64,000 nt of DNA from Bradyrhizobium sp. CCBAU 53351 (lineage in GTDB: Bacteria > Pseudomonadota > Alphaproteobacteria > Rhizobiales > Xanthobacteraceae). The notes under the pieces are model-generated. The model saw only the letters and a program-made list of their open reading frames with translations, was not told where the DNA came from and did not search any database. Numbering within the stretch: position 1 is the first letter of the stretch; each line of letters begins with the position of its first letter. The stretch lies in assembly GCF_015291745.1 (NCBI RefSeq), contig NZ_CP030059.1, positions 7,219,501 through 7,283,500 of the forward strand, in the 5' to 3' direction. This document shows positions 3,401-17,856 of this stretch, in pieces. The translations under genes were made by a program, and so were the position numbers.

Positions 3401-3546
3401 CTCGTGGCCGGATCTGGTGTGCAAGTCGCCTTCGCCGGCGATGCGCACAGGCTGAATCCCAAAACGAACGCAGATGCGCCGACGAGCAACGCGGCACCGC
3501 GCCGGCGCAGTCGATCCTGCCGCCTCGATAGCCCCTCGCCCCTCAC
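409..3546 (-). CDS. Autotransporter with beta-helix passenger and outer-membrane beta-barrel
   Basis: A 1045-residue secreted protein. An extended signal peptide (charged residues 1-16, hydrophobic stretch, then SPAKA) is followed by a passenger of roughly 12 imperfect repeats of about 28 residues with Asn/Thr/Gly-rich signatures (NNTITNTATGTITVG, GTITVGDAGVGI), typical of a right-handed beta-helix. From about residue 770 the sequence becomes an autotransporter beta-barrel (WDVWAAGYGG, alternating aromatic strands) and ends in a terminal Trp, as outer-membrane barrels do. The start is GTG, with GAGGG as ribosome site. Family knowledge: type Va secretion, usually an adhesin or surface protein. 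No catalytic motif is seen in the passenger, so the substrate or ligand cannot be assigned. Confidence 0.88.
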   Translation of the reverse strand: MRGEGLSRRQDRLRRRGAALLVGASAFVLGFSLCASPAKATCTPDPATSGQTVTCSGTDTDGFQAGAGVDALNVNVLSGAAVNDNGAVSIGVNDFSTVTNNGTVSAGSGLTGIAVGNSNTVINNSTITVLDNGLGIQAIDHNVITNAGTITTGDSGAAISVGDSNTVTNGGALAVGGSGAGVFAGQNNTITNSATGTITGGDGASGIFAFGSAIITNAGAITVGDSAGFSGGILAISDNNTITNTATGTITVGQNAAGIFLQGDFQTVSNLGTITAGDFGVGIAVLGDDSKVTNGGTITVGGSGTAGISLQGDRATISQSGAINVGLGGVAIAYTGSSSTITNSGQITGADFVEGIFVVGDSNIVTNTGKITVGDAGVGIDVSSFSTTNQIVNTGTITVGANGTGIMLSGGGSVFNSGTIDAGAAGAIAIDFCGCGSNTLTLGPGSVINGQVLASGTDTFQLGGTGKDTFNLDLIGVGLQYDGFSTFNKVDSSTWTVTGTGNQDWNVLGGTLMLAGTINGTVSVATGGTFGGVGTVSTITVNGGTLAPGNPTGTLTVSGDLSFTSASSYMVQVSGASNGLAVVAGTATLGGATVVVVPTGSIAKHYTILSAGTLPDAFNPVVAGLSPNLHATLSYGLNNVDLDLALGYGGGLNINQQNVANVLTDYFNRAGGLPVALANLSPAGLTQASGESGTGSQQTTFNAMNLFISLLTDVFGTGRSGAPGATPYADDASANAYAATGRNARDKTTRDAFASIYRKAPVATFEQRWDVWAAGYGGSQTTDGNTGLGSNTTSSSVYGTAVGLDYRFSPSTIAGFALAGGGTGFNVNGLGWGRSDLFQAGAFVRHTAGPAYVTAALAYGWQDVTTNRIVTAAGVDQLRAQFNANALSGRIEGGYRHASQWIGLTPYAAVQATMFSLPSYSEFAVVGSNVFALNYAAKDVTSTRTELGLRADKSFAAAGGLMTLRGRVAWAHDYDPDRIVGAVFQTLPGSAFVVNGAAQARDSALTTAAVQMNWMNGWSASATFEGEFSNVSRSYAGKGVVRYAW
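2256..3291 (-). repeat. In-frame tandem repeats encoding the autotransporter passenger
   Basis: DNA encoding about 12 imperfect repeats of 84-90 bases within the autotransporter gene. Recurrent motifs on the + strand are gtgatcgtgccg and ttggtgat, which encode TGTIT/GTIT and ITN. Spacing and sequence both drift, so this is a protein repeat, not a CRISPR array or a satellite. Confidence 0.8.
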
Positions 3547-3735: not shown

Positions 3736-4776
3736 TCAGTAATTGGTGGCCGCCGCTTCATTCGGGATGCCGTCGATCGGGCATTCCGCGGTCCCTGGCG
3801 TCGCGCGGGTCATCGCCTCGACCATGTCCCGCGTGCCTTCGGGATCCTTGATCCAGTTCTTGTAGAAATCATACGGGCATGCCGCAACTCCGCGCGGGCT
3901 GTCGCCGGAATTGATCATGCCGGTGTAGCCGCGGTGGACCAGCTTGTAGAGATGGTTCTGCGACTGGCCGTTGCGGCGCGCGTCGCGGATCAGGTGTTTC
4001 GAGAGCTGCGCGTACTGGATGCCGTAATCCTCCTCGCCGCATTCACCGAGCGTGCGGCCGTCGAAGCCGATGATCGCGGAGTGGCCGAAATAGGAATAGA
4101 CGCCGTCGAAGCCGGCGGCGTTGGCGACCGCGACATAGACGTTATTGGCCCACGCCATAGCCTTGGAAATCATGACCTGCTGCTCCTTGGCCGGATACAT
4201 GTAGCCCTGGCAGCGCACGATCAATTCCGCGCCCTTCATGGCGCAGTCACGCCAGATCTCCGGATAATTGCCGTCGTCGCAGATGATCAGGCTGACCTTG
4301 AGACCTTTCGGGCCTTCGGACACATAGGTGCAATTGCCGGGATACCAGCCTTCGATCGGTACCCATGGCATGATCTTGCGGTACTTCTGCACGATCTCGC
4401 CCTTGTCGTTCATCAGGATCAGGGTGTTGTAAGGGGCCTTGTGCGGATGCTCCTCGTGGCGCTCGCCGGTTAGCGAGAACACGCCCCACACTTTCGCCTT
4501 GCGGCAAGCCTCGGCGAAGATGGCCGTCTCTTCACCTGGCACCGAGCACGCCGTCTCGTACATCTCCTTGGAGTCGTACATGATGCCTTGCGTGGAATAT
4601 TCCGGGAAGATCACGAGGTCCATGCCGGGTAGACCGACCTTCATGCCCACCAGCATGTCTGCAATCTTGCGGGCGTTGTCGAGCACCTCTGCCTTGGTGT
4701 GCAAGCGGGGCATCTTGTAATTGACGACCGCGACGCCGACCGTATCGTTGCTGCTGGAAATGTCGCCGTGAAGCAT
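3736..4776 (-). CDS. amiE: Aliphatic amidase (nitrilase superfamily)
   Basis: Hydrolyses short aliphatic amides to the carboxylic acid and ammonia in the cytoplasm. The 346 residues match the length of Pseudomonas AmiE, and the N-terminus ([18 protein letters not shown]) is characteristic of AmiE. The nitrilase triad is present at the family's positions: Glu59 in FPEY, Lys134 in KYRKI and Cys166 in IICDDGN, plus Glu142. The frame stays open for 129 codons upstream, but that stretch overlaps fmdB; the ATG at 4776 has AGGAG just upstream. It is the last recognised gene of the urtABCDE-fmdA-fmdB-amiE unit, so imported amides can be hydrolysed at once. Formamidase AmiF is the closest alternative. 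Confidence 0.93.
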
Positions 4777-4814: not shown

Positions 4815-5192
4815 CTAGTGGCTGATCATCCAGGGCCGCGCGGTCGGAAAGCCCTTGGCGCCGCTCTTGGTCTTGGTCACCAGCCGTGCCGGTTTCTTGC
4901 TGTCCGCCGAGCCCTTGTCCTTGACTGTCTTTCCCGAGGAGCAACAGCCACAGCCAGGGCCGTGCGAGGCCTTGTATTGCGCCAGGGTCTGCGGCGCATG
5001 CGAGCTGCGCTCGTTGACGGCGTGGGCCTTGCGCCTGTCCGCCGGCATGCAGAAGAAATTCGGCGCGGTCAGGATCACCCGCGGCGCCATGGTCTCGCAA
5101 TGCGGGCAGCTTTGCGGATCGTCGCATTCGGCCATCGGGCGGAGGTCCTTGAACGGACCGCAATCGTCACAGAGATATTCGTAGACCGGCAT
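4815..5192 (-). CDS. fmdB: FmdB-family zinc-ribbon protein
   Basis: A 125-residue protein starting [12 protein letters not shown], the hallmark of the FmdB family. Two CxxC pairs (Cys8/11 and Cys29/32) form the zinc ribbon. A longer, basic C-terminal tail carries a further cysteine cluster, GCGCC, at about 80-84. In Methylophilus, FmdB is a regulator of, or accessory to, the formamidase operon. Here it sits between fmdA and amiE, as expected. The exact molecular role is not established; binding to nucleic acid or a partner protein is inferred from the ribbon. Confidence 0.88.
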
Positions 5193-5285: not shown

Positions 5286-6515
5286 TCATTTGTCCGGCGA
5301 GATCGGCATCTGGATGTCGCCGGTGATGTGCTTGATGGGCCCGGCCGCCGACGGCATCACGTCGAAGTCGAAGATTTCCGTCGGCAGCCATAGCGTGGCG
5401 CAGGCGTTGGGTACGTCGACCACGCCGGAGATGTGGCCCTGGCACGGCGCGGTGCCGAGGATCGAATAGGCCTGGGCGCCGGAATAGCCGAACTTCTTCA
5501 GATACTCGATCGCGTTGAGGCAGGCCTGACGGTAGGCGATGTGGACGTCGAGATAGTGCTGCTTGCCGGCCTCGTCGACCGAGATGCCTTCGAAGATCAG
5601 ATAGTCCTTGTAGTTCGGCGTGATCGGCGACGGCTTGAAGATCGGGTTCTTGATACCGTATTTCGACATACCGTCCTTGATCACCTCGACCTTCAGGTGC
5701 AGCCAGCCGGCCATCTCGATGGCGCCGCAGAAGGTGATCTCGCCGTCGCCCTGGCTGAAGTGAAGATCGCCCATCGACAGACCGGCGCCGGGCACATAGA
5801 CCGGGAAGTAGATCTTCGAGCCGCGCGAGAGATCCTTGATGTCGCAATTGCCGCCATGCTCGCGCGGCGGCACGGTGCGCGCGCCTTCGGCGCCGATCTT
5901 GGCCTTGACGTCGCCCTTGGCACGGCCGCCATGGGCAGTCGGCGCGAACGGCGGGTTGGCGAGCCCAGGCACACGGGTCGGGTTGGTCGAGATCAATTCG
6001 GCCTCGCGCTTGTTCCAGGTCTCCAGCATCTTGGGATCGGGCAGACAGCCGATCAGTCCGGGATGGATGAGACCCGCGAAGTTCACGCCGGGCACGTGGC
6101 GGGAGGAGGTGTAGAGGCCCTTGATGTCCCAGATCGACTTCTGCGCCAGCGGGAAATGGTCGGTCAGGAAGCCGCCGCCGTTCTGCTTGGAGAAGAAGCC
6201 GTTGAAGCCCCACAGGCTCTCCTTGAGCGGACCGACGTCGAGCAGATCGACCACCAGCAGGTCGCCGGGCTCGGCGCCTTTGACGCCGATCGGACCGGAC
6301 AGGAAGTGGACGATCGACAGGTCGATGTCGCGCACGTCGTCGGCGGAATCGTTGTTCTTGATGAAGCCGCCGGTCCAATCATAGGTCTCGATGATGAAAT
6401 CGTCGCCGGGATTGACCCAGGCCACGATCGGGATGTCGGGGTGCCAGCGGTTATGCACCATGTCGTTTTCATAGGCCGACTTGGTGAGATCGACCTTGAT
6501 CAGTGTCTCTGGCAT
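5286..6515 (-). CDS. fmdA: Formamidase / acetamidase family
   Basis: A 409-residue enzyme that hydrolyses formamide (and possibly acetamide) to the acid and ammonia. The whole sequence reads as an FmdA/AmdA protein: METLIKVDLTKS-like N-terminus, HNRWHPDIP, IHPGLIGCLP, and GDLHFSQGDGEI in the metal-binding core. This fold is unrelated to the nitrilase-type amidase AmiE, so the operon carries two different amide hydrolases. The start at 6515 has GGGGAG at the right distance. Only 28 bases separate it from urtE, so co-transcription with the importer is likely. Confidence 0.93.
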   Translation of the reverse strand: MPETLIKVDLTKSAYENDMVHNRWHPDIPIVAWVNPGDDFIIETYDWTGGFIKNNDSADDVRDIDLSIVHFLSGPIGVKGAEPGDLLVVDLLDVGPLKESLWGFNGFFSKQNGGGFLTDHFPLAQKSIWDIKGLYTSSRHVPGVNFAGLIHPGLIGCLPDPKMLETWNKREAELISTNPTRVPGLANPPFAPTAHGGRAKGDVKAKIGAEGARTVPPREHGGNCDIKDLSRGSKIYFPVYVPGAGLSMGDLHFSQGDGEITFCGAIEMAGWLHLKVEVIKDGMSKYGIKNPIFKPSPITPNYKDYLIFEGISVDEAGKQHYLDVHIAYRQACLNAIEYLKKFGYSGAQAYSILGTAPCQGHISGVVDVPNACATLWLPTEIFDFDVMPSAAGPIKHITGDIQMPISPDK

Positions 6516-6543: not shown

Positions 6544-7233
6544 TTAGACGGACAGATATTTCGAGACCTGCGCGGCATCGACGGCGTCGCGCGGATCGTC
6601 ACGCACGATCTCGCCGTTCTCGATCACCAGCACACGGTCGGCGATGTCGAGCGCGAAGCTCAGCACCTGCTCGGACACGACGATCGAGAGGCCCTTCTCG
6701 TCACGGATGCGCTTCAGGGTGCGCGCCATCTCCTTGATGATCGACGGCTGGATGCCTTCGGTCGGCTCATCCAGCAGCAGGACTTTCGGCTTGGTCGCGA
6801 GCGCTCGTGCGATGGCGAGCTGCTGCTGCTGGCCGCCGGAAAGATTGCCGCCGCGACGGCCTTTCATTTCCAGCAGCACCGGGAACAATTCGTAGATGTC
6901 GCCCGGCACCTCGGAGCCACCGGAGACGACGAGGCCGGTTTCGATGTTCTCCTTCACCGTCATGGTGGAGAAGATCATGCGGCCTTGCGGGACGTAGGCG
7001 AGGCCCTTGGCGACGCGCTCAAAGCTCTTGAGGCTGCCGAGCTCGGCGCCGTCCATGGTCACCGAGCCGCTTTTGGCGGGCAGGATGCCCATCAACGACT
7101 TCATCAGCGTGGTCTTGCCCATGCCGTTGCGGCCCATGATCGCGACGATCTCGTTCGGCGCGACCTTGACGTTGAGCCCGTGCAGCACCTCGCTCTGGCC
7201 GTAGGCGACGTGCAAATCGGAAATTGCCAGCAT
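6544..7233 (-). CDS. urtE: Urea/short-chain amide ABC transporter, ATPase UrtE
   Basis: A 229-residue ATP-binding subunit of the branched-chain amino acid/urea (HAAT) class. Walker A is GRNGMGKT (34-41), the signature is LSGGQQQQ, and Walker B runs into DEPTEGIQPS, which is typical of LivF/UrtE proteins. The frame extends 31 codons upstream into a palindromic repeat; the ATG at 7233, starting MLAISDLHVAYG, is the family start. It works in the inner membrane with UrtD and the permeases UrtB and UrtC. Substrate (urea or formamide/acetamide) is inferred from fmdA and amiE next door. Confidence 0.93.
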   Translation of the reverse strand: MLAISDLHVAYGQSEVLHGLNVKVAPNEIVAIMGRNGMGKTTLMKSLMGILPAKSGSVTMDGAELGSLKSFERVAKGLAYVPQGRMIFSTMTVKENIETGLVVSGGSEVPGDIYELFPVLLEMKGRRGGNLSGGQQQQLAIARALATKPKVLLLDEPTEGIQPSIIKEMARTLKRIRDEKGLSIVVSEQVLSFALDIADRVLVIENGEIVRDDPRDAVDAAQVSKYLSV

Positions 7234-7264
7234 CGATACGCTCCTAGGCTCGATATGTTTTCTT

Positions 7265-7421
7265 CCTTCTCCCCTTGTGGGAGAAGGTGGCGCGGACGAA
7301 GTCCGCGACGGATGAGGGGTCTTCATCCGCGAATGCGAGGAGCAGTTTCTCTCGCGGAGAGATACCCCTCACCCGGATCGCCTGCGCGATCCGACCTCTC
7401 CCACGAGGGGAGAGGTGCACC
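7265..7421. repeat. Mosaic palindromic repeat between urtD and urtE
   Basis: About 157 bases containing nested inverted repeats: CTTCTCCC...GGGAGAAG at the left, CCTCTCCC...GGGGAGAGG at the right, and smaller stems in between (GCGGACgaaGTCCGC, CGGATCGCctgCGCGATCCG). I recognise this as an intergenic palindromic element of rhizobial genomes. It sits inside the operon and must be transcribed with it. Confidence 0.75.
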
Positions 7422-7456: not shown

Positions 7457-8196
<740 letters not shown>

Positions 8197-8212
<16 letters not shown>

Positions 8213-8290
8213 GATCTATCTCCTCACTGCCGGCGTGGCATCGACATCGTGATGACCGATGAGCACGATGTCCTCCTCACTCTGCCGGCG
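8197..8290. repeat. Tandem near-duplicate of the urtC end/urtD start junction
   Basis: Two copies of about 39 bases, at 8197-8235 and 8251-8290, share gatgaccgatgagca, the ribosome site complement and the ccggcg motif with few differences. The left copy carries the real urtD start; the right copy overlaps the urtC stop. It looks like a small tandem duplication of the initiation region. Confidence 0.7.
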
Positions 8291-9419
8291 CGCCGTCGGC
8301 GACCGAATTGTCGTTCCAGCCCGGCTTCGCCTTCCGCGAGGCGAACAGCCGATCGATGCGCGGCTGCACGTAGTCGGCCCAGAGCCCGGACAGACCGTTC
8401 GGGAAGGCGAGCACGACCGCGATGAACAGCGCTCCGAGACCGAACAGCCAGAGTTGCGGGAAGGATTCGGACAGGCTGGTCTTGGCGAAATTCACCAGGA
8501 TGGCCCCCCATATCGCGCCGAAGATCGACATCCGCCCGCCGACCGCGGTGTAGATCACCATCTCGATCGACGGCACGATGCCGACAAAGGACGGCGACAT
8601 GAAACCGACATTGAGTGCGAACATGGCACCGCCGATCGCGGCGAAGACCGAGGCCATGCAGAAGGCAAAGATCTTGAAGTTGGCGACGCTGTAGCCGGAG
8701 AAGCGGACACGGTCCTCCTGTTCGCGCATCGCCACCAGGATGCGGCCGAGCTTGGTCAGCCGGATGAACTGTGCGATGCCGATGCAGGCGAACAGCAGCA
8801 CCACCTCGACGAAGTACAGGATGATCTTGGCGTGGTCGGGCCGGATGTCCCAACCCTTCAGCGTGCGCAGGTCGGTCATGCCGTTGATGCCGCCGGTATA
8901 GCCCTGTTGACCGACGATCAGGATGGTGAGGATGGCGGCCACCGCCTGGGTGATGATCGCGAAATAGGTGCCGCCAACACGACGCTTGAACATCGCTGTC
9001 CCGATGATCAGCGCGAACAGGCCGGGGACCAGGATGATGGCGAGGATGGTGAAGGTCAGGCTGTGGAACGGCTGCCAGAACAGCGGCAGTGACGTGATCT
9101 GATTCCAGTCCATGAAATCGGGGATGCCGGGTGTCGACTGGATCTTGGTGTTCTCGACACTCGATGCCTCGAGCTTGAGGAACATCGCCATGCAATAGCC
9201 GCCCAGACCGAAGAACACGCCCTGCCCCAGGCTCAAGATGCCGCCATAGCCCCAGCACAGCACGAGGCCGAGTGCGACAAAGGCGTAAGTCAGGTACTTC
9301 GCGACCAGATTGAGGCGGAAGACATCGAGCGTCAGCGGCAGGATCACGAACAGCACGGCGGCGAGCGCAATGAAGCCCATGAGTTCGGATCGATTGAAGA
9401 AGCGTGAGTTAATGACCAT
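8277..9419 (-). CDS. urtC: Urea/short-chain amide ABC transporter, permease UrtC
   Basis: A 380-residue LivM/UrtC-type permease with about ten membrane segments. Recognisable stretches are LVLCWGYGGILSLGQGVFFGLGGY and the EAA-like loop (GRILVAMREQEDRVRFSGY). The ORF is open far upstream through urtB in another frame; the ATG at 9419, 17 bases after the urtB stop, gives the expected family start (MVINSRFFNRSE). It forms the inner-membrane channel with UrtB. Confidence 0.94.
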   Translation of the reverse strand: MVINSRFFNRSELMGFIALAAVLFVILPLTLDVFRLNLVAKYLTYAFVALGLVLCWGYGGILSLGQGVFFGLGGYCMAMFLKLEASSVENTKIQSTPGIPDFMDWNQITSLPLFWQPFHSLTFTILAIILVPGLFALIIGTAMFKRRVGGTYFAIITQAVAAILTILIVGQQGYTGGINGMTDLRTLKGWDIRPDHAKIILYFVEVVLLFACIGIAQFIRLTKLGRILVAMREQEDRVRFSGYSVANFKIFAFCMASVFAAIGGAMFALNVGFMSPSFVGIVPSIEMVIYTAVGGRMSIFGAIWGAILVNFAKTSLSESFPQLWLFGLGALFIAVVLAFPNGLSGLWADYVQPRIDRLFASRKAKPGWNDNSVADGAPAE

Positions 9420-9436
9420 GGCTTGCCTGCTTCTCG

Positions 9437-10363
9437 TTATTTGCGAACCTTGAGGGCGAAGAGACCCTGCGGCCGCAGCATCAGGATGCCGACGACGGCG
9501 AGCAGCGTGAGTACCTTGGCCATCGAACCCGACATGAAGAATTCGAGCGTCGATTGCGTCTGCGAGATCGAGAACGCGGAGGCGATGGTACCGAGCAGGC
9601 TGGCGGCGCCGCCGAACACGACGACCAGGAACGTATCGACGATGTAGAGCTGTCCCGAGGTCGGCCCGGTCGAACCGATCATGGTGAAGGCGCTGCCGGC
9701 GATGCCGGCGATGCCGCAACCGAGGCCGAAAGTATAGCGATCGACCTTCTCGGTATTGATGCCGACGGCGCCCGCCATGATACGGTTCTGCACCACGGCA
9801 CGGACCTGGCGGCCCCAGCGCGACAGGTAGAGAACGTAGGCGACAGAGATCGTGATCAGCACGGTGAGGCACATCACGAAGACGCCGTTGATCGGCACTT
9901 CGATACTGTCGCTGACGTGCAGCGAACCGAGCATCCATTGCGGCAGCTCGACGCCGACTTCTCGTGCGCCGAACACGGAGCGATAGGCCTGCTGCAGCAT
10001 CAGGCTGAGGCCCCAGGTGGCCAGCAGCGTATCGAGCGGACGCTTGTACAGATGCCGTATCAGCACCCATTCCACCAGCATGCCCAACGCACCTGACGCG
10101 ACGAAGGCCAGGATCATCGCGAGGAAGAAGTAGCCGCTGAACAGGCTCGGCAAATAGGCCTGGAAGAGATTGGACGTCATCCAGGTGACGTAGGCCCCCA
10201 GGATCATGAACTCGCCATGGGCCATGTTGATGACGCCCATCTGCCCGAAGATGATCGCAAGCCCGAGCGCCATCAGGACGTAGACCGAAAACAGGATCAG
10301 TCCTGCGAAACCCTGCATGACGAAGATCGAGCCGAGATCACCAAGCGAGTAGTCGCCGAACAT
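9437..10363 (-). CDS. urtB: Urea/short-chain amide ABC transporter, permease UrtB
   Basis: A 308-residue LivH/UrtB-type permease with about eight membrane segments. Typical motifs are GLAIIFGQMGVINMAHGEFMILGAY near the N-terminus and the cytoplasmic loop RAVVQNRIMAGAVGINTEK. The ATG at 10363 was chosen because the upstream extension runs into the strong stem-loop at 10390-10420. It follows urtA with a 132-base gap. Confidence 0.94.
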   Translation of the reverse strand: MFGDYSLGDLGSIFVMQGFAGLILFSVYVLMALGLAIIFGQMGVINMAHGEFMILGAYVTWMTSNLFQAYLPSLFSGYFFLAMILAFVASGALGMLVEWVLIRHLYKRPLDTLLATWGLSLMLQQAYRSVFGAREVGVELPQWMLGSLHVSDSIEVPINGVFVMCLTVLITISVAYVLYLSRWGRQVRAVVQNRIMAGAVGINTEKVDRYTFGLGCGIAGIAGSAFTMIGSTGPTSGQLYIVDTFLVVVFGGAASLLGTIASAFSISQTQSTLEFFMSGSMAKVLTLLAVVGILMLRPQGLFALKVRK

Positions 10364-10389
10364 CGATGTCCTCCGTCGGGGATAAGGGT

Positions 10390-10420
10390 CCCGCGTCGCG
10401 ATGCAGAGTCGCGACGCGGG
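10390..10420 (-). terminator. Strong stem-loop between urtA and urtB
   Basis: A perfect 12-base-pair stem (CCCGCGTCGCGA / TCGCGACGCGGG) with a 7-base loop. There is no T-run. In binding-protein operons such a stem usually stabilises the binding-protein mRNA and reduces read-through to the permease genes. That role is inferred. Confidence 0.7.
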
Positions 10421-10495
10421 GTCTTGCGGCGTGGACTTGCGATCCACGCCAGGGAGCGGTTTTGGCTTTTGGGAAACTGCGGCGGAGGCCGCGGC

Positions 10496-11755
10496 TTACT
10501 GATAGCCCTTCGGGAACGGATCCGGCTCGACGAGATCGGCGGTCTCGTAGATCAGCTCGAACTGACCATCGAGCTTGGCGCGGCCTACGCGGGTCTTCGA
10601 CCACAAATGATGATTCTCGTGGATGCGCACGTAGCCTTCCGGAGCCCCCTTGAACTCGACGCCCGGCGAGGCCGCCGCAATCTTGTCGACGTCGAAGGAG
10701 CCGGCCTTCTCGACCGTCAACTTCCAGAGCCACGGGCCGAGATAGGCAGCCTGGGTGACGTCTCCGATGACGGTCTTCTCGCCCCACATCTTCTTGAACG
10801 CCGGCACGAAGGCCTTGTTGTTCGGATTGTCGAGCGACTGGAAGTACTTCATGCAGGCATAGGCGCCCGCGATATTCTCGCCGCCGATGCCGTCGATTTC
10901 GTCTTCGGTCACCGAGATCGTCAGCAGCGCTTGCTTGGAAAGGTCGATGCCGGCGGCCTTGAGCTGCTTGTAGAAGGCGACGTTGGAGCCGCCGACGACG
11001 TCGGTGAAAATGACGTCCGGCTTGGTCAGCTTGATCTTGTTGATGACCGAGTTGAACTGGGTGTTGCCGAGCGGATAATATTCCTCGCCGACGACCTTAC
11101 CCTTCAGCACGTTCTCGACGTGCTTGCGCGCGATCTTGTTCGAGGTGCGGGGCCAGATGTAGTCGGAGCCGATGAAGAAGAACGATTTTGCGCCCTTCTC
11201 CTTGGCGATCCAGTTCAGGCCGGCGAGGATCTGCTGGGTCGCTTCCTGGCCGGTGTAGATGACGTTCTTGGACTGCTCGAGGCCTTCGTAGAAGGTCGGG
11301 TAGTAGAGCATGCCGTTATACTGCTCCATGACCGGGAGCACCGCCTTGCGGGAGGCCGAGGTCCAGCAACCCATGATCGCCGCGACCTTGTCGTTGACGA
11401 GCAGCTTCTTGGCCTTTTCCGCAAAGGTCGGCCAATCGCTTGCGCCGTCTTCCTGGATGAACTTGATCTTGCGCCCGAGAACGCCGCCGGCGGCGTTGAT
11501 CTGCTCGATGGCGAGCTTTTCAGCTTCGATCGAGCCCGTCTCGGAGATCGCCATGGTGCCGGTCGCCGAGTGCAGGATTCCGACCGTCACCTCGGTGTCG
11601 GTGACGGCAAGGCCCGTGGTGTTGACCGCCGAGGTCGCCGGGGCCTGGGCAAAGGACGCCCGCGGCAGCATCGTCATGGCCGGCACGGCGGCCATTCCCA
11701 TCAATAATTTGCGCCGAAGCGGCGATAACAGGCCCTTTTTTCCTTCGTCCGACAT
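10496..11755 (-). CDS. urtA: Urea/short-chain amide ABC transporter, substrate-binding protein UrtA
   Basis: A 419-residue periplasmic binding protein of the UrtA/FmdD class. The N-terminus has twin arginines (LRRKLLMG, 13-20), a hydrophobic stretch and a cleavage site near SFAQA, so export is by Tat or Sec. The body matches the family: TEVTVGILHSATGTMAISE, GCWTSASRKAVLP, GSDYIWPRTSN, GEEYYPLGNT. The ATG at 11755 (MSDEGKKG) was preferred over the ATG at 11851, which would overlap the divergent promoter region. It delivers urea or short amides to UrtBC and is the first gene of the eight-gene unit. Confidence 0.94.
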   Translation of the reverse strand: MSDEGKKGLLSPLRRKLLMGMAAVPAMTMLPRASFAQAPATSAVNTTGLAVTDTEVTVGILHSATGTMAISETGSIEAEKLAIEQINAAGGVLGRKIKFIQEDGASDWPTFAEKAKKLLVNDKVAAIMGCWTSASRKAVLPVMEQYNGMLYYPTFYEGLEQSKNVIYTGQEATQQILAGLNWIAKEKGAKSFFFIGSDYIWPRTSNKIARKHVENVLKGKVVGEEYYPLGNTQFNSVINKIKLTKPDVIFTDVVGGSNVAFYKQLKAAGIDLSKQALLTISVTEDEIDGIGGENIAGAYACMKYFQSLDNPNNKAFVPAFKKMWGEKTVIGDVTQAAYLGPWLWKLTVEKAGSFDVDKIAAASPGVEFKGAPEGYVRIHENHHLWSKTRVGRAKLDGQFELIYETADLVEPDPFPKGYQ

Positions 11756-11826
11756 GAGCACCCCACTTTTGTTCGAGAACACGCGATTGGTGCCGTGAGG
11801 ATGGCTCGGATCTGGGCGGCGGAAGC

Positions 11827-11844
11827 ATACGCAAGATCGCGTAT
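11827..11844. promoter_or_regulatory. Interrupted palindrome in the urtA/sensor intergenic region
   Basis: ATACGC-N6-GCGTAT is a perfect 6+6 inverted repeat 72 bases upstream of urtA and 82 bases upstream of the sensor gene. It is a plausible operator for the LuxR-type response regulator at 15281-16207, acting on urtA. No binding data exist here. Confidence 0.45.
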
Positions 11845-11874
11845 ATTGCACCGCAAAATGCCGACGTAGGCTTT

Positions 11875-11890
11875 TGGTACGGAAATTGCG
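11875..11890 (+). promoter_or_regulatory. Sigma-54-type (-24/-12) promoter for the sensor kinase gene
   Basis: TGGTACGGAAATTGCG matches the consensus TGGYACG-N4-TTGCW at every position but the last, with the required GG-N10-GC spacing. The predicted start site near 11901 would leave a leader of about 25 bases before the GTG at 11926. Sigma-54 control would fit nitrogen-limitation genes. Confidence 0.6.
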
Positions 11891-11925: not shown

Positions 11926-14900
11926 GTGGCAGGGCGGCAGCGAATAGACCGCGTCAGGCGCCAGTACAATCAGTGGGTCGCCAACCAGACGTTGGAAGAC
12001 TACGCGCTGCGCTTCACGGCCAAGAGCGCGCGCCGCTGGTCCGCCGCCAGAGTGGCCAACACCGCGCTGGGCGCGATCTCGTTCCTGGCGATGGAAGCGA
12101 TCGGCGGTACCATCACCCTGAACTATGGCGTCACCAATGCGACCGCCGCCATCCTCGTGGTCTCGACGATCATCTTCTGCTGTGGCGTGCCCATCGCCTA
12201 TTACGCCGCCAAGTGCGGCATCGACATCGACCTGCTCACGCGCGGCGCGGGCTTCGGCTACATCGGCTCGACCGTCACCTCGCTGATCTACGCGTCCTTC
12301 ACCTTCATCTTCTTTGCGATCGAAGCCGTGATCCTGGCGTCCGCGCTCGAGATGTGTTTCGGGATTCCGCGGCCAATCGGCTATCTCATCAGCGCCGTCG
12401 TCATCATCCCGCTGGTGGCTTATGGCATCACGCTGATCAGCCGCTTCCAACTATGGACGCAACCGCTGTGGATCGTGCTCCACATCATTCCGTTCGCGGC
12501 GATCGCCTGGCACAACCCGCATTCCTTCACGGAATGGCGCAAATTTGCGGGCGAGCACGGCGACCTCAACGGCCAATTCGATCTGCTGCTGTTCGGCGTT
12601 GCGGCCTCGGTGGTGTTTTCCCTGGTGGCGCAGATCGGCGAGCAGGTCGATTTCCTGCGATTTTTACCGCGCGACCGCCGCGCATCCAGGGCCTCCTGGT
12701 GGGTGGCGCTGATGAGCGCAGGGCCGGGCTGGATCGTGCTCGGCGCGCTAAAACTCCTGGCGGGTTCGTTCCTCGCCTTCTTCGCCCTCAGCCACGGGGT
12801 ACCGCCCGAGGAAGCCGCCGAGCCGGCCCACATGTATCTCGAAGCGTTCCGCTATGTGCTGTCGCAGCCCGATCTTGCGCTGGCCCTGACCGGCACGTTC
12901 GTGATCCTGTCGCAAGTCAAGATCAACGTCACCAATGCCTATGCCGGCTCGATCGCCTGGTCGAACTTCTTCTCGCGGCTGACCCACAGCCATCCCGGCC
13001 GCGTCGTCTGGCTGGTTTTCAATGTCATCGTGGCGCTGCTGTTGATGGAGATCGGCGTCTACAAGGCCCTGGAGCAGACGCTGGCTCTGTATTCGAACGT
13101 TGCGATCGCCTGGGTCGGTGCGCTGGTCGCCGATCTCGTCGTCAACAAGCCGCTTGGCTTGCGGCCGCAGCAGATCGAGTTCAAGCGGGCGCATCTCTAC
13201 GACGTCAATCCGGTCGGCGTGGGCGCCATGACGATCGCGACAATCGTCTCAATCAGCGCCTTTTACGGCCTGTTCGGGCCTAGTGCGAAGGCGCTGTCAG
13301 CCTTCATAGCGCTTGCGGCCGCCTTCATCACCGCACCGCTGATCGCCTGGGCCACAGGCGGCAAGTACTACATCGCACGCAAGCCGAAACGGAGCTGGCA
13401 GAACATCGAGGCGATCCAGTGCTGCATTTGCGAGCACGCGTTCGAGCCGGAGGATATGGCCTCCTGCCCGGCTTACGCCGGGCCGATCTGCTCCTTGTGC
13501 TGTTCGCTCGACGCCCGCTGCCACGATCTCTGCAAGCCGCACGCCCGGATCCAGGCGCAGGTGTCGGAGACGCTGGGCAAGCTGATGCCGCAGCCGATCT
13601 ACGCGCGGATCAACTCGCAGCTCGGCCAGTATATCGGCGTTTTCGTGGTCTCCGCCGGCCTCGTCGCGCTGGTGCTTGGCCTGATCTATCTGCAGACCTC
13701 GGCGAGCGTGCATGGCGAGAACATGCTGGTTTCCGACGTGCTGTGGAAGGTGTTCTTCTCGCTCAGCATCATCATCGGCGTGGTGGCCTGGCTGTTCGTG
13801 CTGGCGCAGCAGAGCCGCCGCGCGGCCGAAGCCGAGACACGGCGGCAGACCACGCTGCTGATCCAGGAGATCGACGCCCACAAGCGCACCGATGCCGAGC
13901 TCCAGCGCGCCAAGGAAGTCGCCGAATCCGCCAACCTCGCCAAGAGCCGCTATGTGGTGGGCCTGAGCCACGAGCTACGCTCGCCGCTGAATGCGATCAG
14001 CGGCTATGCGCAGCTGCTGGAGCAGGACGCGACGCTGAGCACCAAGCCGCGCGACCAGGTCCGCGTCGTCCGCCGCAGCGCCGACCACCTTTCCGGCCTG
14101 ATCGACGGCATTCTGGACATCTCCAAGATCGAGGCGGGGCGGCTGTATCTGTCGCGCGACGAGGTGCGGCTCAGCGAATTCCTCGACCAGCTCGTCGGCA
14201 TGTTCCGCCTGCAGGCCGCCGCCAAGGGCATCGACTTCGTGTTCCGGCGGCCGCCACACCTGCCGCTGGTGGTCTATGCCGACGAGAAGCGGCTGCGCCA
14301 GGTGCTGATCAACCTGCTCTCCAACGCGATCAAGTTCACCCAGACCGGCAGCGTGCAGTTCGTCGTGCATTATCGCAGCCCCGTTGCCGAGTTCGAAGTG
14401 ATCGACACTGGCCCAGGCATCCAGGGCGGCGATCTCGAGCGCATTTTCGCGCCCTTTGAGCGCGGCGCGCTCGGCGTCTCGCAGCCGCAGACCGGCACGG
14501 GACTCGGCCTGACCATCAGCCGCCTGCTGGCCGGGGTCATGGGCGGCGATATCAAGGTGACGAGCACGGTCGGCGCCGGCTCGACGTTCAAGGTCAAGAT
14601 CCTGCTGTCCGAGGTCACAAATCCGCAGCGTATCGCGCCGATTGAGGCCCCGGTCTCCGGGTATCACGGCGCGCGCAAGACCATCCTCATCACCGATGAC
14701 GATCCGGTTCACCGCGACCTCCTGCGCGAGGTGCTGACGCCGCTCGGTTTCATCCTGCTCAGTGCTCCCGACGGTCCCGGCTGCCTCGCGCTGGCGCAGC
14801 ATTGCCGGCCCGATTTGTTCCTGCTCGACATCTCGATGCCGGCCATGGACGGCTGGGCCGTGGCGGAGGCGTTGCGCACGAGCGGCCACCGCCAGGCGCG

Positions 14901-15297
14901 CATCCTGATGGTGTCGGCGAGCGCGCTGGAAGCTCACGGCACGCCGCTGGCGCAGCCCTTCCACGACGGCTACCTGATGAAGCCGATCGACATCCCCCGG
15001 CTCCTGGAGGCAATCCGCCAGCTGCTCAAGATCGAATGGCAATACGGCTCGGACGAGGTCGCGGTGTCGTTCTGGCGCCCCGAAAGCGGGTCGAGGCCGC
15101 CGGCGCGGCATATCGAGGCGCTGATCGGGCTCGGCCAGATCGGCTACGTCAGGGGTATCCAGTTGAAGCTGGACGAGATCGGCAACGAGCATCCGGAGCA
15201 TGCCGACTTCGTCGCGCAGATGCGGTCCCTGGTGGACCGCTTCGATCTCGAGCAGTACATGGCCACATTGAAGACATTGCATGCGCATGAGCATTGA
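11926..15297 (+). CDS. NCS1-type permease fused to a hybrid sensor histidine kinase/receiver
   Basis: A 1123-residue membrane sensor. Residues about 20-480 read as a twelve-segment nucleobase:cation symporter-1 type transporter (RRWSAARVANTALGA; GIDIDLLTRGAGFGYIGS). A cysteine-rich linker follows with nine Cys between 499 and 536 (CCxC, C, CxxCC, C, C). Two more membrane segments (about 565-590 and 610-630) and a coiled linker lead to the kinase: His682 in LSHELRSPLNAI, N-box NLLSNAIKF, G boxes DTGPGI and GTGLGL. The receiver has phospho-acceptor Asp968 in LLDISMP and Lys in MKP. The start is GTG after GGAGTGGGG. It diverges from urtA and overlaps the next gene, so a role as amide/urea-type receptor for that operon is inferred. 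Analogous layouts exist in CbrA-like SLC5 fusions. Confidence 0.9.
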   Translation: MAGRQRIDRVRRQYNQWVANQTLEDYALRFTAKSARRWSAARVANTALGAISFLAMEAIGGTITLNYGVTNATAAILVVSTIIFCCGVPIAYYAAKCGIDIDLLTRGAGFGYIGSTVTSLIYASFTFIFFAIEAVILASALEMCFGIPRPIGYLISAVVIIPLVAYGITLISRFQLWTQPLWIVLHIIPFAAIAWHNPHSFTEWRKFAGEHGDLNGQFDLLLFGVAASVVFSLVAQIGEQVDFLRFLPRDRRASRASWWVALMSAGPGWIVLGALKLLAGSFLAFFALSHGVPPEEAAEPAHMYLEAFRYVLSQPDLALALTGTFVILSQVKINVTNAYAGSIAWSNFFSRLTHSHPGRVVWLVFNVIVALLLMEIGVYKALEQTLALYSNVAIAWVGALVADLVVNKPLGLRPQQIEFKRAHLYDVNPVGVGAMTIATIVSISAFYGLFGPSAKALSAFIALAAAFITAPLIAWATGGKYYIARKPKRSWQNIEAIQCCICEHAFEPEDMASCPAYAGPICSLCCSLDARCHDLCKPHARIQAQVSETLGKLMPQPIYARINSQLGQYIGVFVVSAGLVALVLGLIYLQTSASVHGENMLVSDVLWKVFFSLSIIIGVVAWLFVLAQQSRRAAEAETRRQTTLLIQEIDAHKRTDAELQRAKEVAESANLAKSRYVVGLSHELRSPLNAISGYAQLLEQDATLSTKPRDQVRVVRRSADHLSGLIDGILDISKIEAGRLYLSRDEVRLSEFLDQLVGMFRLQAAAKGIDFVFRRPPHLPLVVYADEKRLRQVLINLLSNAIKFTQTGSVQFVVHYRSPVAEFEVIDTGPGIQGGDLERIFAPFERGALGVSQPQTGTGLGLTISRLLAGVMGGDIKVTSTVGAGSTFKVKILLSEVTNPQRIAPIEAPVSGYHGARKTILITDDDPVHRDLLREVLTPLGFILLSAPDGPGCLALAQHCRPDLFLLDISMPAMDGWAVAEALRTSGHRQARILMVSASALEAHGTPLAQPFHDGYLMKPIDIPRLLEAIRQLLKIEWQYGSDEVAVSFWRPESGSRPPARHIEALIGLGQIGYVRGIQLKLDEIGNEHPEHADFVAQMRSLVDRFDLEQYMATLKTLHAHEH

Positions 15298-16207
15298 ACC
15301 AAAGAAGCGCGACGTCGCGCTGGTTGTCGATGACTCTCCGGAGACGCTGCGGCTACTGACCGACGCGCTTGACGGCGCCGGCATGACGGTGATGGTGGCG
15401 CTCGATGGCGCGGCCGCGATGCGCATCGTCGACCAGATCACGCCGGATATCGTGCTGCTCGATGCCGTGATGCCCGGCATCGATGGCTTCGAGACCTGCC
15501 GCCGGCTGAAGCGCGATGCGGACCTTGCCAATGTCCCGGTCATCTTCATGACGGGCCTTGCCGAAACCGAGCACATCGTGCGCGGGCTCGAGGCCGGCGG
15601 CGTCGACTACGTGACCAAGCCGATCGTGATCGAGGAGATGCTGGCGCGTATTCGCGTCCATCTCGGCAATGCCCGGCTGACGCAGAGCGCGCGCGCCGCG
15701 CTCGACGTCTCCGGCCGCTTCCTGTTCGCAGTGAACCGCCAGGGCAATTTGCTATGGGCGACGCCGCAGGCGCAGAAGCTGATGTCCGATCATCAGGGCG
15801 CACGGGCCGACGACTTCGTCCTGTCGCCGACGCTGCTGCAATGGCTGGAGCAGGCCAAGACCAAGGGTAGTTCGAAATCCCAGGCGACCTCGTTACCAGA
15901 CAATCCGCAACTCCGGCTCTATTATATGGGCGAGACGGCGCCGAACGAGTTTCTGCTGCGGCTCTCCAGGGACTCCGGCACCGCGCTGCCGCCCGAATTC
16001 ACCAGCGAGCTCGGCCTCACCACCCGGGAGGGCGAGGTGCTGGCCTGGCTCAGCAAGGGCAAGACCAACCGCGACATCGCGCAGATCCTGGGCCTCAGCC
16101 CGCGCACGGTCGACAAGCACCTGGAGCAGATCTACGCCAAGCTCGGCGTGGAGAACCGAACGGCAGCCGCCGCGATCGCGGCGAATGCGACGCGAAGGAA
16201 TTCGTGA
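15281..16207 (+). CDS. Response regulator, receiver plus LuxR-type DNA-binding domain
   Basis: A 308-residue regulator. The receiver domain (residues 10-130) has the acidic pair Asp17/Asp18, phospho-acceptor Asp61 in LLDAVMPG, and Lys in TKP. A central 80-residue linker has no recognised motif. A LuxR/FixJ helix-turn-helix closes the protein (LTTREGEVLAWLSKGKTNRDIA, then SPRTVDKHLEQIYAKLGVENRT). It overlaps the sensor gene by 17 bases, so the two are translationally coupled; a second ATG at 15287 is an equally good start. It is the evident partner of the fused sensor and probably binds the urtA promoter region. Confidence 0.9.
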   Translation: MRMSIEPKKRDVALVVDDSPETLRLLTDALDGAGMTVMVALDGAAAMRIVDQITPDIVLLDAVMPGIDGFETCRRLKRDADLANVPVIFMTGLAETEHIVRGLEAGGVDYVTKPIVIEEMLARIRVHLGNARLTQSARAALDVSGRFLFAVNRQGNLLWATPQAQKLMSDHQGARADDFVLSPTLLQWLEQAKTKGSSKSQATSLPDNPQLRLYYMGETAPNEFLLRLSRDSGTALPPEFTSELGLTTREGEVLAWLSKGKTNRDIAQILGLSPRTVDKHLEQIYAKLGVENRTAAAAIAANATRRNS

Positions 16208-16210
16208 GCG

Positions 16211-16234
16211 GGGTGAGGACGATTGTCCTCACCC
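16211..16234. terminator. Bidirectional terminator between the response regulator and monooxygenase genes
   Basis: A perfect 10-base-pair stem (GGGTGAGGAC / GTCCTCACCC) with a GATT loop, plus an outer TTCGTG/CACGAA pair. It overlaps the ends of two convergent genes and can serve both strands. Confidence 0.7.
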
Positions 16235-17731
16235 ATACACGAACGCCTTGTCGTCCAGATCCGTCTTCGGAATCTCGTCCTTCTCGGTCCAGTAATCCTG
16301 GCTGTGCTGCCATTCCGGCTTGTCGCCACGCTTGGGCAACAGGTTCATGTTGCGCATCATGTAGCCAGGATTGAAGTTCTCGGGATCGATCCAGGGCAGG
16401 ATCGGCATGTTGTGGTCTTCGGGGCGAAGTTTCACCTCGACCTTCTTCTTGCCGTTGGCCTTCATATGACCAAGCAGCCGGCAGACGAAATCGGCAACGA
16501 GGTCGACGCGCAGCGTCCAGCTCGCGCGGAAATAGCCGAACACCCAGACCATGTTCGGTACGCCCGTGAACATCATGCCGCGATAGGTGACGGTGTCGCC
16601 GAAGGCGAGCGGCTTGCCGTCGATCTCGAAGGCGATGTCGCCGAGCGCCGCGAGATTGAAGCCCGTTGCCGTGACGATGACGTCGGCTTCCAGCAGCTTG
16701 CCCGATTTGAGCTGGATGCCGTTCTCGACGAAGCACTCGATCTCGTCGGTGACAACCGAGGCCTTGCCGCTGGCGATGCCCTTGAACAAATCGGCATCCG
16801 GCACGAATGCGATGCGCTGCCGCCACGGCCGGTAGGTCGGCGTGAAGTGCGTCTCGACGTCGTAATCGGGACCGAGCACGGCGCTGATCTGGCCGATCAG
16901 CTCCTTCTTCACCTGCTCGGGCTTGGACACGCAGAGCTTCGTGAAGGCATCCTGCTCGAACAGGATCTTGCGGCGGACGATCTCGTGGATCCAGGCCTCG
17001 TCGACCTGGAGCCGGCGCAATTCCTCGGCAATCTCGATGGCGTTGCGCCCCAAGCGGAAATAGGTCGGCGAACGCTGCAACATGGTGACATGCGCGCATT
17101 TGTCCGCAATGTTCGGCACCAGCGTCGCCGCGGTGGCGCCCGAGCCGATCACGACGACCTTCTTGTTTTCGAGATCGATATCCTCGGGCCAGGTCTGGGG
17201 ATGGACGATGCGCCCCTTGAAGCGGTCCATGCCCTTCCATTCCGGCGTGTAGCCTTCCGAATGGCGGTAATAGCCCTGGCACATCCAGAGGAAATTCGCG
17301 GTGAACGTCTTTGCTTCGCCAGTGTCGGTCGTCACCGCCTCGATGGTCCAGAGGTTCCGCTCGCTCGACCAGCTCGCGGAATTGATCTTGTGCTTGTAGC
17401 GAATGTGCTTCGCGATGTCGTTGTCCTCGATCACCTCGTTCATGTAGGTGAGGATTTCCTCGGCGGTCGCGATCGGCGGACCAACCCAGGGCTTGAAGCT
17501 GTAGCCAAACGTATGAAGATCGCTGTCCGAACGAATTCCGGGATAACGGTGCGTGGTCCAGGTTCCGCCGAACGTCGCCTGGGTTTCCAGGATCACGTAG
17601 CTGGTGCCCGGAAGCTGCTTGTCGATGTGATAGGCGCTGCCGATGCCGGAGATGCCGGCGCCGACGATCAGCACGTCGAAATGTTCAGAGGCCTGCTTGG
17701 TCGTGGCGTGGCTGCGAACGGCGACATTCAT
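16229..17731 (-). CDS. Type I Baeyer-Villiger monooxygenase, EthA-like
   Basis: A 500-residue flavoprotein that uses FAD, NADPH and O2 to insert oxygen next to a ketone, or to oxidise sulfides. The FAD site is GAGISG (24-29), the NADPH site is GSGATA (196-201), and between them the family fingerprint FxGxxxHxxxWP is exact (FKGRIVHPQTWP, 171-182). Stretches such as FGGTWTTHRYPGIRSDSDLHTFGY and HVTMLQRSPTYF are close to mycobacterial EthA. The start is uncertain: 17731 gives MNVAVRSHATT, while 17809 adds 26 residues. The substrate cannot be told from context. Confidence 0.88.
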   Translation of the reverse strand: MNVAVRSHATTKQASEHFDVLIVGAGISGIGSAYHIDKQLPGTSYVILETQATFGGTWTTHRYPGIRSDSDLHTFGYSFKPWVGPPIATAEEILTYMNEVIEDNDIAKHIRYKHKINSASWSSERNLWTIEAVTTDTGEAKTFTANFLWMCQGYYRHSEGYTPEWKGMDRFKGRIVHPQTWPEDIDLENKKVVVIGSGATAATLVPNIADKCAHVTMLQRSPTYFRLGRNAIEIAEELRRLQVDEAWIHEIVRRKILFEQDAFTKLCVSKPEQVKKELIGQISAVLGPDYDVETHFTPTYRPWRQRIAFVPDADLFKGIASGKASVVTDEIECFVENGIQLKSGKLLEADVIVTATGFNLAALGDIAFEIDGKPLAFGDTVTYRGMMFTGVPNMVWVFGYFRASWTLRVDLVADFVCRLLGHMKANGKKKVEVKLRPEDHNMPILPWIDPENFNPGYMMRNMNLLPKRGDKPEWQHSQDYWTEKDEIPKTDLDDKAFVYG

Positions 17732-17856
17732 TGTTGCTTCTATGCCTTGCTTGTTTTGGTGGCCGCCCTTGACTGGGCGACGCGTTTCCTCCGCAGCGGG
17801 CATGATCACCCGCCGCGCTTCCGCTTCAAAATGACATAGATCAAGTCGCGGTCAAA

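Follow-up and report, generated by a model that had tools for sequence, protein, structure and literature searches.

A permease-histidine kinase with an eight-cysteine module, a candidate receptor for urea and short amides in Bradyrhizobium and other Proteobacteria

Introduction

Histidine kinases fused to an N-terminal permease are described for the SLC5/STAC kinases in passages of two papers (PMC7918813, PMC9100948). The pairs CbrA/CbrB, CrbS (MxtR)/CrbR and RpuS/RpuR govern the use of single nutrients, their permease is an SLC5 domain of 13 helices accompanied by STAC and PAS domains, and CrbS and RpuS are hybrid kinases paired with a LuxR-type regulator. Here we analysed a gene of related design, encoding a permease fused to a hybrid histidine kinase (the receptor), in Bradyrhizobium sp. 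CCBAU 53351. The gene lies in a stretch of 64,000 nucleotides (contig NZ_CP030059.1, positions 7,219,501 to 7,283,500 of the forward strand), called the window, to which all coordinates refer. The kinase core and the LuxR-type partner are shared with the SLC5/STAC kinases. In contrast to these, the receptor has an NCS1-like permease, a module of eight cysteines and two additional helices, no PAS domain was found in it, and its predicted targets are urea and amide genes. Judged by its domains, it falls outside the CbrA class, the permease being of another family and a PAS domain not having been found.

Urea and formamide are nitrogen sources for bacteria. We consider it probable that the receptor is a kinase for urea and short amides whose regulator activates the genes of their uptake and hydrolysis. 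Comparison of sequences between loci shows the architecture, the invariant cysteines, the genomic linkage, the operator and the covariation of operator and regulator. According to the sections of PMC13209695 consulted, AmiC/AmiR and FmdB likewise control aliphatic amidase and formamidase genes. AmiC has a sensing domain of the periplasmic-binding type that restrains AmiR, an RNA-binding antiterminator, whereas the system described here would pair a membrane kinase with a DNA-binding regulator; FmdB is a zinc-ribbon protein, encoded here in the same operon as fmdA. Import of formamide has been proposed for urt genes beside fmdA (PMC13209695, in part), and a 2026 genome paper on Ectopseudomonas guguanensis mentions, in the part consulted, that a second urtABCDE operon has a two-component pair of the LuxR type next to it, to which it assigns no function there (PMC13296017). 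A description of the receptor itself was not found in the open-licence full-text literature, which misses most subscription papers.

Results

Domain architecture of the receptor

The receptor gene and its partner are composed of the following parts.

11926..15297, + strand: receptor kinase gene, 1,123 amino acids (open reading frame (ORF); full-length relatives in the genus, with at most 97% identity)
11926..13377, + strand: NCS1-like permease domain, residues 1-484, about 12 helices (hydropathy, hhalign, invariant columns)
13420..13533, + strand: eight-cysteine module, residues 499-536, C-x2-C-x11-C-x7-C-x2-C-C-x5-C-x3-C (cysteine spacing)
13630..13806, + strand: two extra transmembrane helices, residues 569-587 and 609-627 (hydropathy)
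13942..14607, + strand: HisKA (His682) and HATPase_c (Pfam; His682 in 65 of 65 receptors)
14683..15018, + strand: receiver domain (Pfam; Asp968 in 65 of 65 receptors)
15287..16207, + strand, alternative start 15281: LuxR/NarL-type response regulator (Response_reg and GerE; overlaps the receptor gene)

Pfam delimited HisKA at residues 673-738, HATPase_c at 786-894 and the receiver (Response_reg) at 920-1031, with His682 within SHELR and Asp968 within LLDISMP. Up to residue 474, the hydropathy peaks of the permease overlap and merge to about 12 helices. Pfam revealed no PAS or other sensory domain in the receptor, and about 45 residues separate the last helix from HisKA. The regulator matched Response_reg (E 2e-27) and GerE (E 1e-18), as expected for a regulator of the NarL/FixJ (LuxR) type. 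These data reproduce the order of permease, cysteines, two helices, histidine kinase and receiver that a first-pass annotation of the locus had proposed, with its residue numbers, and the coupled LuxR-type regulator. The closest protein relatives are Bradyrhizobium records, 97-98% identical.

In an alignment of 65 receptors, the mean pairwise identity was 70% for the cysteine module, the most conserved of the parts compared, 63% for the permease, 66% for HisKA, 59% for HATPase, 42% for the receiver and 35% for residues 546-640, the stretch of the two extra helices. Conservation of the permease thus matches that of the kinase core (63% versus 59-66%), and 93 of the 484 permease columns are invariant.

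A permease domain related to the NCS1 family

No Pfam model matched the permease part even at E values up to 5. The NCS1 family model PF02133 was matched by none of 28 receptors and had no match in the genome of the window, and an SSF (SLC5) domain was likewise without a Pfam match in the receptor. No direct assignment of the permease by Pfam or PDB was obtained. Kinship became apparent at the level of profiles. Three stand-alone relatives with 22-26% identity were scanned, and two of them (L150, L041) matched PF02133 while the third (L151) did not. The alignment of the permease with five stand-alone relatives by hhalign gave an E value of 1e-36, and the alignment with six PF02133 members an E value of 4e-6, a probability of 87% and 17% identity. 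The homology to NCS1 permeases extends over about 350-440 columns. By the stand-alone relatives and the profile comparison, the permease part is NCS1-like; the NCS1 type named in the first-pass annotation was supported in this indirect way and not by a match to Pfam or PF02133.

Residues were then placed on Mhp1, with its Trp117, Gln121, Ser312 and Thr313 as points of comparison. In this approximate mapping, Glu133 (65/65) falls at Gln121 and Phe129, replaced by Leu in 12 of the 65 receptors, at Trp117. Lys332 (65/65) takes the place of the sodium ligand Ser312, and Ile333, invariant in 28 receptors, that of Thr313. The receptor would differ from the NCS1 permeases Mhp1 and CodB by Glu133 and Lys332, and by its fusion to a kinase. 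Lys332 is nevertheless not an invention of the receptors, because Lys or Arg occupies this position in the stand-alone relatives, which share Glu133 as well. The putative pocket would include the invariant residues E133, E239, Q240, K332 and N334. The region of Arg245 and Asp242 is also common to receptors and stand-alone NCS1 members. A further residue of Mhp1, Asn318, is described in the part of PMC9379551 consulted.

The eight-cysteine module

The receptor of the window has cysteines at positions 499, 500, 502, 514, 522, 525, 526, 532 and 536. The spacing was analysed in 162 ORFs that matched residues 1-640. The exact pattern given above was present in all 156 ORFs that combine permease and kinase (150 distinct sequences), and the six ORFs devoid of it are five stand-alone permeases and a permease-less kinase (L157). 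An alignment of the nine cysteines had been called for earlier, poor conservation being named as a refuting result; eight of them proved invariant with one spacing, and C500 is the only one that is not conserved. Asp510, Ile521, Ser523, Leu524 and Leu528 are also invariant among 109 distinct motif strings, which were picked by the cysteine pattern, so that only their non-cysteine columns are informative.

No Pfam family matched the module above chance. Cross-brace zinc fingers of the FYVE/RING type have two interleaved sites with eight ligands; in the comparison with them, eight invariant cysteines were present, and only one of 28 members touched FYVE, weakly (E 0.86). No Pfam family better than E 0.1 was found for 13360-13980, which holds the module and the two helices, with the proviso that the presence of a STAC model in Pfam is unconfirmed. 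If the number of permease helices is even, as hydropathy suggests, the module would share the cytoplasmic side with the kinase. The most ordinary reading of such a module, and the most likely one, is a pair of structural zinc sites.

Linkage to urea and amide genes

The receptor gene is divergent from an operon of the urtABCDE-fmdAB-amiE type, as had been noted at first and as was confirmed mostly by Pfam matches of the neighbouring ORFs. The names urt, fmd, ami and ure are family names assigned to these Pfam or BLAST matches.

10496..11851, - strand, true start probably near 11755: urtA, amide-type binding protein (Peripla_BP_5)
9437..10447, - strand: urtB (BPD_transp_2)
8277..10070, - strand: frame containing urtC, the gene being its later part (homologues in the urtC position, not Pfam)
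7457..8212, - strand: urtD (ABC_tran, BCA_ABC_TP_C)
6544..7326, - strand: urtE (ABC_tran)
5286..6515, - strand: fmdA, acetamidase/formamidase (FmdA_AmdA, E 1e-181)
4815..5192, - strand: fmdB-like zinc-ribbon protein (Zn_ribbon_8)
3736..4776, - strand, ORF listed to 5163 with a start likely near 4776: amiE-like amidase (CN_hydrolase)
409-3546, - strand: autotransporter of 1,045 amino acids, adjoining the amide operon (PF03797)
16229-17809, - strand: flavin monooxygenase-like gene, convergent with the regulator gene and there in only part of the Bradyrhizobium loci

A scan of genome contigs yielded at least 591 stretches that encode a relative, 80 named loci of which were kept for neighbourhood counts. 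An upstream and divergent urtA was found in 75 of the 80; four others (L099, L119, L123, L128) are cut by contig ends and L079 has amiE there. The 75 urtA genes comprise 63 of the amide type, most of them accompanied by fmdA if the contig extends far enough, and 12 of the urea type, six with ureC in view. A separate regulator gene adjoins the receptor gene in 77 loci; L096 and L119 are cut, and L121 is a single ORF. The latter (L121:9650-14305, from a Rhodoblastus genome) joins receptor and regulator in 1,551 amino acids with two receivers and GerE, either by fusion or by a sequencing error.

Similar linkage was observed among 57 receptor copies from 398 genomes sampled across the phylum. For 45 copies urtA lies within 10 kb; ten of the remaining 12 have urease, urt or fmdA genes next to them, and in G440 and G547 the contig breaks off at the locus, which places 55 of the 57 near such genes. 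The neighbours are thus not random; random neighbours had been named earlier as a result that would refute the proposal, and a chance neighbourhood was rejected on these counts (75/80 and 55/57). All 38 genomes of the 398 with an amide-type urtA (at least 60% identity) have the receptor, and none of the 346 genomes devoid of it has such a urtA. Fourteen receptor genomes are without amide-type urtA, and several of these have the urea type beside the receptor. Five Bradyrhizobium genomes without the receptor contain only urtA-like proteins of 25-38% identity, and FmdA is absent from them save for one match of 38%. In one locus (L225) fmdA, an amide-type urt set, urease genes and the receptor form a single run.

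The association with the two operon types appears to have changed repeatedly. A tree built from 71 receptors in one short search, with 12 of its 68 inner branches lacking support, requires at least four switches between the urea and the amide type of operon. On this tree the labels are clustered (0 of 500 shuffles were as low, for either group), a result that near-copies alone would produce. A search for receptor residues that track the operon type gave four columns versus a control mean of 5.7, so that no residues separating urea-linked from amide-linked receptors are claimed. The simplest reading of these comparisons is that one ligand class, urea and small carboxamides, would serve both types. 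The urea or short-amide receptor of the first-pass annotation was strengthened by the operon switching, by the joint absence in the five congeners and by the shared operator described below; its alternative ligand, a nucleobase breakdown product, is not needed by the evidence.

A conserved operator and its covariation with the regulator

Three elements were noted between urtA and the receptor gene of the window.

11828..11843: predicted regulator operator TACGCAAGATCGCGTA, of the TACG-N8-CGTA form (locus comparison)
11863..11868, + strand: second half-site-like GACGTA, conserved among Bradyrhizobium loci
11875-11889, + strand: Sigma-54-like TGGTACGGAAATTGC before the receptor gene, with near forms in most Bradyrhizobium loci

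Of 50 regions separating urtA from the receptor gene, 40 contain the 7-mer TACGTCA, versus 2.1 expected. The 16-bp palindrome TACGTCANNTGACGTA, taken as the canonical form, scored at least 12/14 in 33 of 47 urtA-receptor intergenic regions (46 loci from L095 on and the window) and in none of the shuffles. The 1.08 Mb of loci L095-L149 contain 19 further sites at this threshold, all located 28-209 bp before fmdA, urtA, urtC or the receptor gene. Where urtA and the receptor gene are apart (L134, L138, L139, S. meliloti pSymB), the site stands before urtA. In a survey of 60 whole genomes, 41 with the receptor and 19 controls, the exact operator occurred in seven receptor-bearing genomes, once each and at these loci, and in none of the controls; the reversed pattern was not found. 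With two mismatches allowed in an 18-mer, 42 sites were counted in the 41 receptor genomes (11 for a control pattern) and seven in the 19 controls (three for the control pattern).

Within the genus, six genomes with the receptor have the exact 18-mer of the TACGCAAGATCGCGTA site at the receptor locus and nowhere else (G011 has two copies, at its two loci), and it is absent from four Bradyrhizobium genomes without the receptor; matches with two to three mismatches lie elsewhere in all or nearly all ten. TACG-N8-CGTA was present at four amide-type urtA genes and lacking upstream of seven urea-type urtA genes distant from a receptor (best 5/8).

The operator varies together with the regulator. 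The recognition helix was compared through the residue that follows RTV, which presumably corresponds to the DNA-contacting Lys188 of NarL, in the window and in loci numbered L092 or higher, with sites found by their outer bases only. With Asn at this position, the inner operator base is T..A at 38 of 44 sites; with Asp, Gln, Thr, His or Lys, C or G occurs on at least one side at nine of ten sites (Fisher 1e-6, kinship ignored). Five of the ten non-Asn sites are Asp, and the independent cases number about seven because four of these come from Bradyrhizobium or near kin. Six of the roughly seven agree, and S. meliloti (Thr) keeps T..A. These data suggest that the regulator controls the urt and fmd genes through the operator, which is the best-supported part of our reading and strongly links the system to this regulon.

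The Sigma-54-like site was seen in 18 of 70 intergenic regions, versus 0.12 expected from shuffles. The cases are 17 Bradyrhizobium loci and L098, so that TGGTACGGAAATTGC is not general, and it was rejected as the main control element.

Distribution and variants of the receptor

A match of the full-length type was present in 31 of the 35 other Bradyrhizobium genomes searched, with two copies in G011. The query of residues 1-640 matched 61 of the 398 proteobacterial genomes; a manual reading of the match list left 52 genomes at the receptor level, with the 57 copies treated above. In a class-level draw, 22 of 289 genomes matched, 20 at the receptor level. Databases label the protein as 'hybrid sensor histidine kinase', 'ATP-binding protein' or 'purine-cytosine permease-like'. 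Plasmids carry it as well: 525 of 72,556 PLSDB records matched at E 1e-20, 511 covering 80% of the query, and the matches include 342 from Klebsiella and 78 from Sinorhizobium. In the one Klebsiella plasmid read, AP022158.1 (L238; IncFIB/IncFII, typed conjugative), the whole receptor-regulator-urt-amiF module lies near clpK/hsp20, with an operator scoring 13/14 in the intergenic region. AmiF, of the nitrilase family, replaces FmdA there as the amidase.

Several copies deviate from the common layout. The receptor is in two pieces in the congeners G005 (L162) and G033, and a Bradyrhizobium diazoefficiens protein (P0046) is a permease-only product of 645 amino acids, by natural loss or sequencing error as for these two. 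The receptors L158, L159 and L160 have no receiver, and a further kinase, or a protein resembling one, that does have a receiver is encoded nearby; L158 and L159 adjoin fmdA. A permease-less kinase of the family (L157:6857-8713) begins with a Cys-rich segment without the full pattern, and no urt genes were seen nearby. Such copies were rejected as a second family, only two relatives having been found. The receptors L154, L155 and L156 (G362, G691, G701) stand beside ureC and have extra residues between permease and cysteine module; their regulator helix reads SPATV(or A)KKHLE, and the operator at urtA is TACGCCANNTGGCGTA in G701 and its kindred G680.

Discussion

From these comparisons we infer the ligand, the site of sensing, the pocket, the direction of control, and the function and metal content of the cysteine module. 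The permease, kept as a ligand-binding domain, would bind urea or a small carboxamide, for example formamide. As the permease alternates between outward- and inward-facing states, the change would be relayed by the rigid cytoplasmic module, most likely with two structural zinc sites, and by the two extra helices to a coiled coil, which would set how active His682 is. Phosphate would then be passed to the co-encoded LuxR-type regulator, the built-in receiver acting as a modulator. The regulator would bind the TACG-N8-CGTA palindrome that precedes urtA, fmdA and, in many cases, the receptor gene itself, and activate the genes of uptake and hydrolysis. It is likely that the permease domain is where urea or a small amide binds, and that the kinase follows the conformation of this domain.

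The signal could instead enter through the eight-cysteine module, as a redox cue, zinc, nickel or an iron-sulfur (Fe-S) cluster, with the permease as an anchor or an independent transporter. The high conservation of the module (70%) and the nickel requirement of urease loci would suit such a role, and CbrA offers a precedent for a permease that is not the sensor (PMC9100948, in the part consulted). However, the 93 invariant permease columns exceed what an anchor needs, and nickel is no evident common factor because amide operons without urease in view have the same module. We regard entry through the cysteines as quite improbable. A strict transceptor, whose permease would still carry urea or amides across the membrane, with the kinase monitoring flux or occupancy during transport, seems to us unlikely. 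The transport of histidine by CbrA (PMC7918813, in part) and the Glu133 and Lys or Arg at 332 shared with stand-alone relatives are in its favour. The positions of Lys332 and Ile333 at Mhp1 Ser312 and Thr313 speak against sodium coupling, although Lys or Arg is found at 332 in the stand-alone relatives too, and the locus already encodes an ATP-binding cassette (ABC) uptake system. Ammonia is the one product common to urease, FmdA and AmiE, which would suit a sensor of ammonia or of general nitrogen status. Yet good operator sites stand at urea and amide loci, unlike a general nitrogen regulon, and the solved NCS1 permeases CodB and Mhp1 bind hydantoins and cytosine, not ammonium, according to passages of PMC9379551; such a sensor appears very improbable.

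Several observations weigh against a receptor that senses urea or amides by its permease and acts through this operator. The SLC5 domain of CbrA is reported, in the parts of PMC9100948 and PMC7918813 consulted, to be unnecessary for signal perception, so that the permease domain need not be the sensor. The split genes of G005 and G033 mean that the receptor is dispensable there or that the assemblies are wrong. The L157 copy has no permease, and L158, L159 and L160 have no receiver beside a second kinase that has one; by these three, the receiver is dispensable in evolution. The mapping of the pocket is approximate and relies on a distant Mhp1 alignment (17% identity of hhalign to PF02133 members). 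As to the operator, its exact form is missing from 34 of the 41 receptor-bearing genomes, 14 of the 47 intergenic regions score below 12/14, the Bradyrhizobium operator departs from TACGTCANNTGACGTA (10/14), and the geometry search yielded no site at ten of 54 Asn loci. Sites with up to two mismatches also lie away from these genes and in five of the 19 control genomes, and the weak matches thus include noise.

A urea or short-amide receptor remains the explanation that we favour. Whether these proteins form one receptor class, Proteobacteria-wide and plasmid-borne, that combines an NCS1 permease with an invariant lysine in the sodium site, a new two-metal cysteine module and a dedicated operator, we judge to be about evenly balanced. 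If our reading is true, it would supply a urea and formamide receptor together with its predicted operator, its target genes and the residues that matter most. It would also represent a second, independent conversion of a permease to a kinase, and would bear on whether kinases such as CbrA are driven by their permease domains, and by what means.

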